DNA of 52,523 bases from Erysipelotrichaceae bacterium 7770_A6 (GTDB lineage Bacteria > Bacillota_I > Bacilli_A > Erysipelotrichales > Erysipelotrichaceae), in the NCBI GenBank assembly GCA_014610835.1, contig QQXM01000020.1, positions 1-52,523 of the forward strand. Reading direction: 5' to 3'. Positions 37,258-52,280 of this stretch are shown here, in pieces (position 1 is the stretch's first letter; every line of letters starts with the position of its first letter). Made by a program: the position numbers and the translations under genes. The notes under the pieces are model-generated. The model worked only from the letters and a program-made list of their open reading frames with translations, was not told where the DNA came from and ran no database searches.

Positions 37258-38162
37258 ATGTTGAAAATGAAGAATAAAGGATTTACATTAGCAGAATTAC
37301 TTATTGTTGTAGCTATCATTGCAATACTTGTGGCAATTTCATTGCCATTGTTTTCATCACAGATTGCAAAAGCAAACCTATAGGCAGACCAGACACACGT
37401 ATCTGCGGCAAAAGCAGTGCAGTAGCAGAATATTTAGATTCAGACAGCCATGATACAATCACTTTTTATTTTGATGCTGGAATTGTAATGGCAAATAAGA
37501 ATAATAGTGAAGGTATTGCTGGATACGGAAAGAGTACAAAAGAACCATATAAAAATCAAACAGGTGCAAATGGTGTACCTGTGAGTGAAGATGGTTCAAA
37601 GAATATCATTCAAGTCATTGTTGGAAACAATGGAACTGTAATGTCTACGAGCTGGGTACCAGTGGGTACAAATTCAAACTCTCAAGGTGGTGGAAGTATT
37701 CAACCAACATCTGTACCTATACCTACACAAGAACCTGCACCTTCAGCAGCGCCAAATCCTAATGTACCAGATTGGGTAATCACTAATTGTAGTGGAAGCT
37801 GGCCAACAATACAAAACGACAACACAGTTAAGCCAAATTCTGTCGTGAAGGGCAATATTTATACATACGATGGTAATTATTATGTAGCATCTCAAGATCA
37901 AGCTATAGATAAAAATAATTATTGGAAACCTTCAGATAATAAGGGCAGGCTTGCAGTGAAGATTGATAATACGAATTCTGTATATACTGTTAACGATTTA
38001 ATTCCAAATCCTGAAAATCCTACACAAAAGCATATAGATGTTAAACAGGGCGATATTTTTAAATATTCAGATACAGAAATCTATATTAGACAATATACGA
38101 GTGATTGGGTTAGTGAACTACATGTTGAAATGAGAGATTGGATCCGTGTCAATTTAAAATAA
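37258..38162 (+). pseudogene. prepilin-like protein gene broken by TAG and a frameshift
   Basis: The first frame starts at ATG 37258 (or 37267) and gives the class III prepilin leader KGFTLAELLIVVAIIAILVA with the G/F cleavage site. It hits TAG at 37381. After a frame change between about 37400 and 37425 the same protein continues (AVAEYLDSDSHDTITFYFDAG) through 38162: a Pro/Thr/Ser-rich linker near the PTSVPIPTQEPAPSAAP segment, then a C-terminal domain with GNIYTYDGNYYVASQDQ, similar in style to carbohydrate-binding modules. Two lesions in 50 nt make it a pseudogene. TATAAT ends 7 nt before the ATG. A downstream ATG at 37488 keeps a 224-aa ORF open. Confidence 0.75.
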
Positions 38163-38246: not shown

Positions 38247-38798
38247 ATGATCATAACACTTACTGTAATTATTCTTTGTATTGCGAATTATATACGTCTA
38301 GTACAAAAGCAAAAGAGTGAGACATATGACATAGCACTTGTAGAATGCGGTGCTCTACAAAAGCCATCCTATAACATTCAAAAAGAATTCTATAGATTCT
38401 TAACAGCGGGATTTGTTCACTTCTCAGTAGCACATCTACTCATTAACATGTATTGCTTATGGTCAATGGGATCAAGTATGGAAATGATGTTAGGACCAGT
38501 GAGATACTGTATCTTACTGTTTGGCTCTATCATCACAGGAAATATATTTGCATATCTTATGGGAGATGAGTATTCCATTTCTGGTGGCATGAGCAGTGGG
38601 ATTTATGGGTTGCTTGCAGTGGATGTTACTTTGATATTTGCTACATATGGTATAGAAGGAATTATAGGAAATCCTTCATTGCTAACTGCATTATTATTGA
38701 ACTTAGGAATGAATTTTATGCCGGGTGTTGGATGGAAGTCGCATCTTGGCGGTGCATGCTTTGGCGTGTTATTTGTATCATATTTATTCTATTTTTGA
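38247..38798 (+). CDS. rhomboid-family intramembrane serine protease
   Basis: 183 aa, about six membrane segments. Conserved rhomboid elements are FYRFLTAGFVHFSVAHLLINMYCLWSMGS in the first half, the nucleophile Ser116 in SGGMSSGIYGL, and the catalytic His in WKSHLGGACFG near the end. The consensus GxSG reads GMSS, a slight deviation. It is shorter than many rhomboids and has no extra cytoplasmic domain. Rhomboids cut membrane proteins in the bilayer. GGAGG is spaced 7 nt from the ATG. Confidence 0.85.
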   Translation: MIITLTVIILCIANYIRLVQKQKSETYDIALVECGALQKPSYNIQKEFYRFLTAGFVHFSVAHLLINMYCLWSMGSSMEMMLGPVRYCILLFGSIITGNIFAYLMGDEYSISGGMSSGIYGLLAVDVTLIFATYGIEGIIGNPSLLTALLLNLGMNFMPGVGWKSHLGGACFGVLFVSYLFYF

Positions 38799-38863: not shown

Positions 38864-38893
38864 TTGACAATGAATCTATTTTTCCGTTATCCT
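38864..38893 (+). promoter_or_regulatory. promoter of the structured RNA
   Basis: TTGACA (38864-38869), 18-nt spacer, TATCCT (38888-38893). Start expected at about 38900. Confidence 0.55.
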
Positions 38894-38899
38894 ATTGCA

Positions 38900-39168
38900 G
38901 TACAAATCGTACAGAAATTGACCGCCTAGAAATAGGCTAAGGCTACACGGACGGCCGGGTCAAATGCCGAAGACTTGTTGAAGAAGCAAGAACCGTATTT
39001 AGGGAATACGTAAGGGTGTTTACCCTTATTGATTGAGTTAAAAGCTCAGTTTTGTAAAGTTATGTGTAATATATACCTTATAAAATGGTCAATAAGCTGG
39101 AATTTCTGTAACGGAAAGTATGCAGGTAGATTGTGAAGATAGGTGTGTATTGCGCATCTATCTTTTTT
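38900..39168 (+). ncRNA. large multi-hairpin noncoding RNA, possibly of the raiA motif
   Basis: About 270 nt without an open frame, more GC-rich than its surroundings and packed with short helices. TTGACC (38918-38923) pairs with GGTCAA (38958-38963) and encloses GCCTA-GAAA-TAGGC. Then come CTTGT/GCAAG (38974-38990), CGTATT/AATACG (38994-39010), TAAGGGT-GTTT-ACCCTTA (39011-39028) and TGAG/CTCA (39034-39048), a less paired AT-rich part, and a terminator. A promoter lies directly upstream. Size, hairpin number and Bacillota host agree with the raiA-motif RNA, but I could not compare to a model. 6S, tmRNA, RNase P and SRP RNA signatures are absent. It could also be a leader for the peptidase gene 27 nt downstream. 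Confidence 0.6.
39137..39168 (+). terminator. terminator of the structured RNA
   Basis: AGATAG ... CTATCT stem with an inner TGTGT/GCGCA pairing, followed by six T. Confidence 0.8.
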
Positions 39169-39194: not shown

Positions 39195-41351
39195 ATGAAA
39201 AAGACATTGCAAGCAAGCCTTAGTGCAGTATTAGTGTTGAGTTTAGCTGGATGTAAATCTACAGCAGCTTCAGTATCTTCAACACAAAGTGCGCAAAACA
39301 ACACTTTCTATCAAGATGCTATTGATGCATATGTGAATGAAATTGATATGGATTATGCATATGATTTCACAAAAACATTATCATTGGATCCATCACTACA
39401 TGACAATTCACTTGGTTTTAGAACAAGTGGATCTGATGCGGAACATAGAACTGCAGATTATCTTGCAGAAAAAATGGAAGAAATTGGTTTAAAGAATGTA
39501 GAAAAGATTCCAGTCACAGTTGATAAGTGGCAGTACAATGATGCTTCTTTAACAATTGATGGTACAGATATTGACTTGATGCCTGTGTCTTATATGGTTA
39601 ACGGTACTGATGAAAAGGGTATTACAGCTGAAATCGTTGATTGTGGAACTGGTTTTGCGGAAGATTATGAAGATAAAGATGTTAAAGGAAAGATTGCATT
39701 AGTTGGTGTTGACCAATATAACGAATCTTGGATTGGCGGATATATTTATGAAGCATATGAACATGGAGCAAAGGCTTTAGTTACATATGACTTAGATGGC
39801 TATGGCAGATACAGTGATGATGATCATCAGATTCAGGATGTATGTGCTGAAGATGTTATGCCAACAGCAATCATTACAATGAGTGAATACAAGCAAATCA
39901 AAAAGGCATTGGATGCAGGTCATAACAAAGCAAATTTAGTCATTGACAGTGTCATGGAAGAAGGCAAGGGAACAAGCTACGATGTTGTTGGCTATATTCC
40001 TGGCAAGTCTCATGATCAGCAGATTATTTTTGCAGGTCATTATGACATGTATTTCACAGGTTTTCAGGATGACTGCAGTGCTATTGGCACAATCATGACG
40101 ATGGCTAAAACAATGATTGATAGTGGCTATGTTCCTGAAAATGACATTGTTGTAGTAGCACATGGTGCAGAAGAATGGGGTGCAACAGGTACAGAATTTG
40201 ACTGGACAAGGGGTGCATATGAACTCATTAACAATGTTCATCCTGAATGGGCAAGCAAGACATTAGCAATGTTCAACTTTGAATTGGATGCATTTGATGA
40301 TGGTGGTGATACATTCATGATCACAAGTGTTCCTGAATATGCAACTTTAGTAAAGAACTTAGTTGATGAAGGTGTATTGGATGGTGCTGTAAAAGACTAT
40401 GAAAAGGGTATTTCTGCAGAAACATTTGATACAACAACAATGGAAGATGGTATTTCTTATAGAGGTGCAGGTGTGCCTTACTTCTTGAATACAACTGATA
40501 CATGTTCTGGTTCTACAAGTGAAGATGGTGAATATACATGGTCACAGTTACACTATCATACAGAATCTGATAATACAGATACATATAGTGAAAAAGTCAT
40601 GAAGGCAAACATTGCGGTATTTGGAAGTATTGCGATTGCAATCGATCAGCTTCCAGCAATGACATTAGATATGCAGGCTACAATTGATGATCTTTCTGAA
40701 AGCTTCAATGAAGACTTGGCAGAAGAAGCAGGCGTTTCTAAAGAAGACTGGGAAAATGCACTTTCAGTATTCCAGAAAGAAGTTGATGCATTGAATGCTG
40801 AAGGTAAAGATATCAATGAGAGATATGTAAAGGCTGTATCTTCTAAGGCTGATGTAGAAGCAATCCAGGAAGAAGGAAAAGCTTACAACAAGAAAGTATT
40901 AGAGTTATTTAAGTATGTTCAGGATAACTTTATTGGTATTGTTTTCTCTAGTGATGTTGTGATGAAGCATGTTGGCTATCAGAATAACATTGAATACATG
41001 GATGAAGTCATTGATGATTTAAACGATAACAAGATAAGTGATGCATTAGATGTTGCATATCAGTTAAATGGTCTATGTGAATATAATTACTATTTATTCT
41101 CACCAAATGCTGCAGCTAAGATTGATGCGCATGCTGATAAAGCTGTTGATAATAACAAATGGTGGGGAAATGACAAGGGATTCTATTTCACAAATACAAA
41201 AGAAGCTACTGCTTCCTTACTCAAAAGGGAAGATGGAGATGATGTGAGTGAAGAAATCAAAGTTTATGAAGATGCTAGAGCACAACAGTTAAACTACTAC
41301 AAAGATTCTCTTGAAAAAGAAATCCAGGCAATGGAGAAGATTGGTAAATAA
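39195..41351 (+). CDS. M28-family zinc peptidase, surface lipoprotein
   Basis: 718 aa. A lipoprotein signal ends at LSLAGC (Cys20). A protease-associated domain spans about 110-260. The M28 core follows, with zinc ligands seen in FAGHYDMYF (His), QDDCSAIGT (Asp), HGAEEWGATG (Glu-Glu), FNFELDAF (Glu/Asp) and LHYHTESDNTD (His). The last ~230 residues are a helical extension. M28 enzymes remove N-terminal residues or dipeptides from extracellular peptides. The start is preceded by AAAGGGG at an unusually long distance (12 nt); a 2-codon ORF (ATG AAT TAA at 39184) lies in between. The gene sits inside the pilus block without an obvious link to it. Confidence 0.9.
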   Translation: MKKTLQASLSAVLVLSLAGCKSTAASVSSTQSAQNNTFYQDAIDAYVNEIDMDYAYDFTKTLSLDPSLHDNSLGFRTSGSDAEHRTADYLAEKMEEIGLKNVEKIPVTVDKWQYNDASLTIDGTDIDLMPVSYMVNGTDEKGITAEIVDCGTGFAEDYEDKDVKGKIALVGVDQYNESWIGGYIYEAYEHGAKALVTYDLDGYGRYSDDDHQIQDVCAEDVMPTAIITMSEYKQIKKALDAGHNKANLVIDSVMEEGKGTSYDVVGYIPGKSHDQQIIFAGHYDMYFTGFQDDCSAIGTIMTMAKTMIDSGYVPENDIVVVAHGAEEWGATGTEFDWTRGAYELINNVHPEWASKTLAMFNFELDAFDDGGDTFMITSVPEYATLVKNLVDEGVLDGAVKDYEKGISAETFDTTTMEDGISYRGAGVPYFLNTTDTCSGSTSEDGEYTWSQLHYHTESDNTDTYSEKVMKANIAVFGSIAIAIDQLPAMTLDMQATIDDLSESFNEDLAEEAGVSKEDWENALSVFQKEVDALNAEGKDINERYVKAVSSKADVEAIQEEGKAYNKKVLELFKYVQDNFIGIVFSSDVVMKHVGYQNNIEYMDEVIDDLNDNKISDALDVAYQLNGLCEYNYYLFSPNAAAKIDAHADKAVDNNKWWGNDKGFYFTNTKEATASLLKREDGDDVSEEIKVYEDARAQQLNYYKDSLEKEIQAMEKIGK

Positions 41352-41382: not shown

Positions 41383-41769
41383 ATGGATAAGAAAAATAAA
41401 GGTTTTACATTGGCTGAATGACTGGTGGTTGTGGCAATTATAGCTGTACTTGTAGCTATTTCAATTCCTATCTTTACATCTCAATTACATAAAGCAGAGG
41501 TGACAACGAACCAGGCAAACCTTAGAGTTTACTATGCTGAGATTCAGACGGATTATCTTCAAAAAGATAAATATAACAGTTTAGTTCCAGAAAATGATGG
41601 TGGTGTAAATAAAAACCATATTATTAGACATTTAGATGGAACAACAACGGAATTGAAAGCTGGCTTCTATGCGGTAGCTAAATTATCATCTGGTGGCTAT
41701 CAAATATCATATTATTGTGATGACTACATGAAAGATTTTCATAAAGAATGCATGATAGTTATTGGATGA
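41383..41769 (+). pseudogene. prepilin gene with an in-frame TGA in the signal motif
   Basis: ATG 41383 after AGGAG gives MDKKNKGFTLAE, then TGA at 41419-41421, then LVVVAIIAVLVAISIPIF in the same frame, and a short pilin body (to 128 codons) ending ECMIVIG. In functional prepilins the residue after Glu5 is Leu or Met; TTA to TGA is a single change. So this is a major-pilin-like gene inactivated by one nonsense mutation inside the most conserved part. UGA readthrough is unlikely because UGA serves as a stop elsewhere here. Confidence 0.8.
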
Positions 41770-52050: not shown

Positions 52051-52126
52051 TGGTGGTTCCTGACGGGCTCGAACCGTCGACCCACTGATTAAGAGTCAGT
52101 TGCTCTACCAACTGAGCTAAGGAACC
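52051..52126 (-). tRNA. tRNA-Lys (anticodon CTT), copy 1
   Basis: 76 nt on the minus strand including an encoded CCA. Begins GGTTCCTTAGCTCAGTTGG; anticodon loop CTCTTAA, T-arm GGTTCGAGCC, acceptor GGTTCCT/AGGAACC with discriminator A. Confidence 0.95.
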
Positions 52127-52168
52127 AATTGCTTATCTATTATAATCATTTTATTTTGAAAATGCAAT

Positions 52169-52199
52169 AAAAAACTCATTCAATTTTGAATGAGTTTTT
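52169..52199 (-). terminator. terminator of tRNA-Lys copy 2
   Basis: Minus strand: AAAACTCATTCAA-AATTGAATGAGTTTTTT-type hairpin directly behind the second tRNA-Lys gene. Confidence 0.75.
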
Positions 52200-52204
52200 C
52201 TTTA

Positions 52205-52280
52205 TGGTGGTTCCTGACGGGCTCGAACCGTCGACCCACTGATTAAGAGTCAGTTGCTCTACCAACTGAGCTAAGGAACC
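52205..52280 (-). tRNA. tRNA-Lys (anticodon CTT), copy 2
   Basis: Identical to the copy at 52051-52126, 154 nt away, CCA encoded. It is the one next to the strong promoter. Confidence 0.95.

Follow-up and report, generated by a model that had tools for sequence, protein, structure and literature searches.

A leader RNA of the RF02440 (SpF59) family before an M28 peptidase gene in an Erysipelotrichaceae bacterium, probably a transcription attenuator linked to polyamine status

Layout of the locus

The window analysed here is a 52,523-nt stretch of contig QQXM01000020.1 from Erysipelotrichaceae bacterium 7770_A6. Between a separately terminated rhomboid gene (38247–38798) and the gene for a lipoprotein-like M28-family peptidase, it contains a leader RNA of about 270 nt with the following features:

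38864–38893, plus strand: promoter-like pair, −35 TTGACA (38864–38869) and −10 TATCCT ending at 38893, 18-nt spacer
38900–39168, plus strand: entire leader RNA, from expected start to terminator end; fold z −4.76, single copy
38910–39110, plus strand: closing stem P1, 38910–38917 (UACAGAAA) with 39103–39110 (UUUCUGUA); p 0.015 versus shuffles
38918–38963, plus strand: P2, UUGACC (38918–38923) with GGUCAA (38958–38963), enclosing P3 and P4; pair counts
inside P2, plus strand: P3, 38924–38928 with 38933–38937, GAAA loop; pair counts
inside P2, plus strand: P4, 38941–38943 with 38954–38956, invariant ACGGAC at 38947–38952; pair counts
38919–38970, plus strand: match to RF02440 SpF59_sRNA ('Streptococcus sRNA SpF59 (ldcC RNA)'), 64.8 bits, gathering score 37.2
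38974–39010, plus strand: two extra, subtype-specific hairpins (38974–38990 and 38994–39010)
39012–39027, plus strand: hairpin P5, AAGGGU/ACCCUU; double changes at all 6 pairs
39026–39095, plus strand: P6, UUAUUGA (39026–39032) with UCAAUAA (39089–39095), enclosing P7 and P8; pair counts
inside P6, plus strand: P7, 39034–39037 with 39045–39048; pair counts
inside P6, plus strand: P8, 39050–39057 with 39078–39085; pair counts
39069–39078, plus strand: proposed antiterminator strand AUAUAUACCU, overlapping the P8 3' strand; pairs with 39141–39150
39135–39168, plus strand: intrinsic terminator between sensor and gene start, a 14-pair hairpin followed by a U-run
39141–39150, plus strand: AGGUGUGUAU, within the terminator (left arm and loop); pairs with 39069–39078
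39195–41351, plus strand: lipoprotein-like M28-family peptidase with a PA domain, 718 aa (Pfam PF04389, PF02225)

The 270-nt RNA folds at −80.7 kcal/mol, versus −59.1 ± 4.5 kcal/mol for dinucleotide shuffles (z −4.76), and none of 200 shuffles was as stable. With the conservation of the helices in homologues, this bears out the first-pass annotation, which had claimed a structured RNA built of short perfect helices; these are present as P2, P3 (with its GAAA loop), P4, the two extra hairpins, P5, P6, P7, P8 and the terminator. The leader sequence occurs once in the 2.28-Mb draft genome, and the ORFs overlapping it are small and none is convincing, in agreement with the earlier claim that the RNA contains no ORF. 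Control by a leader peptide was rejected, the AUG in the conserved AAAUGCCG having no conserved reading frame or length in the homologues.

The promoter-like pair matches 10 of the 12 consensus bases and would place the transcription start near 38900. Promoter-like matches taken alone were about as frequent as expected by chance within the 1.4-kb region (8 found versus 5.4 expected); among 113 homologues, pairs matching at least 10 of 12 bases were found upstream of the RNA in 35%, versus 5% of shuffles. The start codon at 39195 lies 30 nt past the terminator stem. The TTGACA promoter and the terminator that had been attributed to this RNA were both recovered as sequence features. The earlier reading, in which the terminator closes an independent RNA, was not: the comparative evidence makes it a premature one, within the leader of the gene at 39195.

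Other features of the window were noted in passing. On either side of the region lies a type IV prepilin-like gene with a GFTLAE signal (41384–41769 and 37258–38162), and both look interrupted, the former by an in-frame TGA directly after GFTLAE and the latter by a stop after 41 aa, with another ORF then at 37488. A two-tRNA block is present twice in tandem (1756–2204), as is an identical tRNA present twice at 52054–52280.

Family membership, sensor structure and covariation

The RF02440 match covers the full model (positions 1–54), yet only 52 of the approximately 270 nt of the leader, and is the sole convincing Rfam match across this stretch. Membership of the window RNA in RF02440 is established at the level of sequence, and the RNA is not the unnamed one envisaged earlier. 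Its size and many short helices had suggested a raiA motif RNA; however, a scan of the stretch for RF03072 was negative at E ≤ 10, whereas RF02440 was far above its cut-off, so the family scan refutes this identity, to which we attach practically no probability. A search for RF03072 in the bacterium's own genome was also empty, although its positive controls gave no signal either. Neither SAM-I nor any further Rfam family was found at E ≤ 10 for the window RNA or at E ≤ 5 for homologue L012, and identity with the SAM-I-type spermidine riboswitch was rejected on these scans. The homologues, rescanned against Rfam, matched RF02440 and no other family in the corresponding stretch.

Homologues were collected by scanning for ACGGACRGCYNGRTCARATGCCG, and at least 120 stretches were present among the matches listed, so that the tallies below describe a sample. 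Those listed came mostly from Bacillaceae, Paenibacillaceae, Clostridia and Erysipelotrichaceae, with single metagenome-assembled genomes of Spirochaetes and Synergistaceae outside the Bacillota; one of those listed (L114) looks like a chance match, the rest of the RNA being absent. The RNA was patchily distributed in genome searches (8 of 60 relatives, 3 of 395 in the class and 3 of 392 in the phylum), the class and phylum scans scoring few candidates per genome. In a genome of the same genus with 10% contamination (G015), the RNA (L003) precedes an Orn/Lys/Arg decarboxylase gene on a short contig (contig 46) that may be a contaminant.

The 54-nt Rfam model spans only P2–P4, while the similarity among members runs over about 230 nt. 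Alignment and pair counts, for members other than the Streptococcus and Lactococcus copies, revealed a full-length architecture beyond the model that is common to the window and other members, including long stretches with little or no variation (ACGGAC, AUGCCG, UAUAAG, CUUGU and UCAAUAAG). P1 is formed in the homologues by differing yet complementary sequences, and in 49% of sequences the pairing of its 5' and 3' flanks exceeds that of shuffles (p < 0.05); this stem was tested sequence by sequence since MAFFT misaligns it, and some of the failures reflect a 5' strand cut off by the chosen start. For the remaining helices, RNAalifold recovered only 19 pairs from the raw alignment, because insertions break it up. 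P2–P8 were therefore defined manually on a single Paenibacillus sequence and then counted in an alignment of 47 diverse members (A1). In this alignment, 92.7% of 2224 cells were paired and 23 of 50 pairs had changes on both sides, and none of 500 shuffles reached any of these measures; the helices are thus preserved in homologues, the check that the first-pass annotation had proposed. Moving the partners by 1–3 columns reduced pairing to 29–47%, an excess that arises partly by construction, the double changes being independent of that. The counterpart of P5 in other members is GGCAAC/GUUGCC.

An alternative 5-bp hairpin with hardly any sequence change, CUUGU/AUAAG (A1 columns 307–311 with 323–327), is paired in all 47 sequences and competes with both P6 and P8. 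The sensor itself may therefore have two alternative folds.

Downstream genes and the subtype of the window copy

Genes for polyamine synthesis or uptake were found downstream of the RNA in 110 of the 120 classifiable homologues among the matches listed (window included), counts that are not independent, since many come from related Bacilli. The first gene encodes a carboxynorspermidine synthase-like protein (55), SpeD (44), PotA (7) or an Orn/Lys/Arg decarboxylase (4), and in the remainder a C39-like lipoprotein (5), an M28 lipoprotein (3), an amidohydrolase (1) or a carbon-nitrogen hydrolase (1). These names are supported by family scans, the carboxynorspermidine synthase scoring 422 bits, below the strict equivalog cut-off of 800. 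Several homologues head whole spermidine or pot operons; from their N-termini, we take the genes that follow to encode Orn/Lys/Arg decarboxylase, spermidine synthase, an agmatinase-like protein, carboxynorspermidine dehydrogenase/decarboxylase and further Pot proteins.

The gene downstream in the window is an exception to this context, and we know of no polyamine role for an M28 peptidase. The window copy belongs to a subtype with the P4 loop UACACGGACG rather than CAUACGGACA, two extra hairpins and no AGAGUGGUAAAAG...GACUCU module; the extra hairpins are shared with L007, L016, L020, L024, L034 and L128. Its nearest RNA relatives among the matches listed, L016 and L020 (both Erysipelotrichaceae), precede potA, and another Erysipelotrichaceae copy of this subtype (L128) precedes the gene for an amidohydrolase lipoprotein. 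The genome of the window encodes a homologue of PotA that shares 61% identity with its L020 counterpart, and no SpeD was found in it. Two Intestinimonas copies (L024 and L034) share this P4 loop and the extra hairpins and lie ahead of an M28 lipoprotein gene, and the protein encoded behind L034 is 40% identical to the window peptidase. The recurrence of the RNA–M28 pairing in such distant bacteria argues that it is functional. Our guess is that the secreted hydrolases of this group might release polyamines or polyamine-bearing peptides and be turned off when polyamines are plentiful.

In several other homologues (L009, L010, L095, L102, L127 and L139), the same RNA precedes the gene for a C39-like lipoprotein (GNYTDEM... 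family), and in copies of this kind a hairpin covering the ribosome-binding site at times replaces the terminator.

A proposed switch, its alternatives and known systems

An intrinsic terminator was identified in most homologues, roughly 40–180 nt past UCAAUAAG and ahead of the gene. Its left arm is complementary to the P8 3' strand and flank: in 82% of 103 homologues, it outperformed shuffled arms (p < 0.05), with a mean native duplex energy of −13.5 kcal/mol and a median p of 0.003, and 77 of the 103 carry CAAGU within this arm. The two strands change together: many Clostridia carry CACUUG/CAAGUG, direct reading of the sequences gives GUACUUG/CAAGUAC for L009, L111 and L127, and the window subtype has AUAUAUACCU/AGGUGUGUAU (window), AUACCU/AGGUAU (L016), UGCCU/AGGCA (L020) and CUACACC/GGUGUAG (L128); the native arm was the best in three of these last four, with a near tie in the fourth. 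The CAAGUAC element of L127 adjoins a hairpin able to cover the ribosome-binding site and does not lie in a terminator, so translational versions of the switch may exist.

Partition-function folding of growing window transcripts (starts 38899–38901) gave an antiterminator probability of 0.7–1.0 at 3' ends 39150–39160 and a terminator probability near 1 from 39165 on; the alternative full-length folds differ by 1.3 kcal/mol. For most copies from Bacilli, the sensor stays folded in the model and no antiterminator is predicted at equilibrium, which is compatible with a stable sensor and is no proof of switching. The equilibrium test on transcripts ending just past the left arm gave a weak signal; when it was extended, the window subtype improved, but 4 expected pairs were attained by only 15 of the 103 homologues, versus 0 controls. 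Terminator and antiterminator would form a mutually exclusive platform, backed by equilibrium folding in the window subtype and not in most Bacilli.

We propose that the RNA is a cis-acting 5' leader of the RF02440 family (about 230 nt plus terminator) that acts as a transcription attenuator tied to polyamine status, with a probability of about 0.6. The leader is probably a polyamine riboswitch, as far as sequence comparison can indicate. Transcription would start from the promoter at 38864–38893, and the multi-helix sensor would fold within P1, comprising P2–P4 with the invariant ACGGAC loop, P5, and P6 enclosing P7 and P8. An effector, most likely a polyamine such as spermidine, would hold the sensor folded, such that P8 retains its 3' strand and the terminator at 39135–39168 forms, stopping transcription ahead of the gene at 39195. 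At low effector levels, 39069–39078 (P8 3' strand and flank) would pair with 39141–39150 and RNA polymerase would read through. Direct sensing of a polyamine is our hypothesis within this scheme, and ligand binding, ligand identity and the OFF direction are all features that we infer.

The reading as a leader attenuator is well supported. The covariation, terminator and gene data would fit equally well an attenuator of polyamine genes that responds to an RNA-binding protein or to another signal (amino acid, translation state or Mg2+), and, with some members linked to secreted hydrolases, the associated genes do not point exclusively to polyamines. However, long invariant stretches over about 230 nt are more usual for a binding pocket built by the RNA itself, and no conserved upstream peptide frame was found in the homologues; we therefore regard such a sensor as an unlikely alternative, albeit one to be taken seriously. 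A free-standing, trans-acting small RNA, of which the terminator would be merely the 3' end, appears less probable still. Rfam classifies the family as 'Gene; sRNA', a discrete 318-nt transcript is known in S. pneumoniae, and a lung-fitness phenotype is given for F59 in a review (PMC4387999). Nevertheless, a terminating riboswitch likewise yields a discrete short transcript, and the steady position of the RNA shortly before genes of one functional class, in the same orientation, together with a terminator arm complementary to the sensor, speaks against a trans-acting role.

In cells, few small molecules are RNA-bound to the extent that polyamines are. If the leader binds a polyamine, as we favour, many Gram-positive bacteria would control the synthesis and uptake of spermidine through a common riboswitch class of distinct structure. 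Even with a protein sensor, a 54-nt 'sRNA' entry becomes a covarying leader of about 230 nt with a testable switch, and a secreted peptidase is tied to polyamine control. More tentatively, and at slightly under even odds, RF02440 may be the visible tip of a large, widespread and unrecognised class of Bacillota polyamine riboswitches, the regulon of which includes secreted hydrolases; the M28 peptidase, C39-like lipoproteins and amidohydrolase would then be new players in polyamine scavenging.

The namesake of the family, SpF59 (F59/srn235/SN20/Spd_sr49) of Streptococcus pneumoniae, was detected by tiling arrays as a transcript of 318–327 nt that lies between SP0915(−) and SP0916(+) and has a promoter as well as a Rho-independent terminator (PMC2887815, PMC3395615, PMC12323649), and SP_0916 is an arginine decarboxylase (PMC7531197). 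The pneumococcal and window RNAs share the family match over the 54-nt model, a position upstream of a co-directional gene and an end at a terminator; however, the former precedes an arginine decarboxylase gene and the latter an M28 peptidase gene, and the window copy differs from RF02440 in its two extra hairpins and in the absence of the usual 3' module. The alias 'ldcC RNA' probably arose because SP_0916 was formerly annotated as a putative lysine decarboxylase; its origin was not found in the literature searched, and it suggests that the RNA had already been linked to the gene. One study proposed an FMN-switch-like motif for SN20. The raiA motif (ModT, RF03072) resembles the window RNA in size, many short helices and occurrence in Bacillota, but differs in model match and gene neighbourhood, and ModT has been described as a stable, abundant RNA in its own right, whereas we read the window RNA as a leader attenuator.

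Among candidate RNA elements likewise linked to polyamine genes, odc1 is a single hairpin at the start codon in alphaproteobacteria, and the potE motif is restricted to Veillonella and lacks an obvious expression platform (PMC8632094). The literature searched, the coverage of which did not extend to Weinberg et al. 2017, held no description of the RF02440 leader as a polyamine riboswitch and no convincing polyamine riboswitch besides a rare SAM-I variant that recognises spermidine (Salvail et al. 2023, PMC10853860), the authors of which expect further polyamine riboswitch classes. That variant is likewise a leader of polyamine genes (ldcC, speE, speB, speD) with terminator/antiterminator control (PMC10853860). 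However, the window RNA has no SAM-I match and differs from it in size, helices and conserved bases, and the RF02440 leader is far more widespread than this rare variant.
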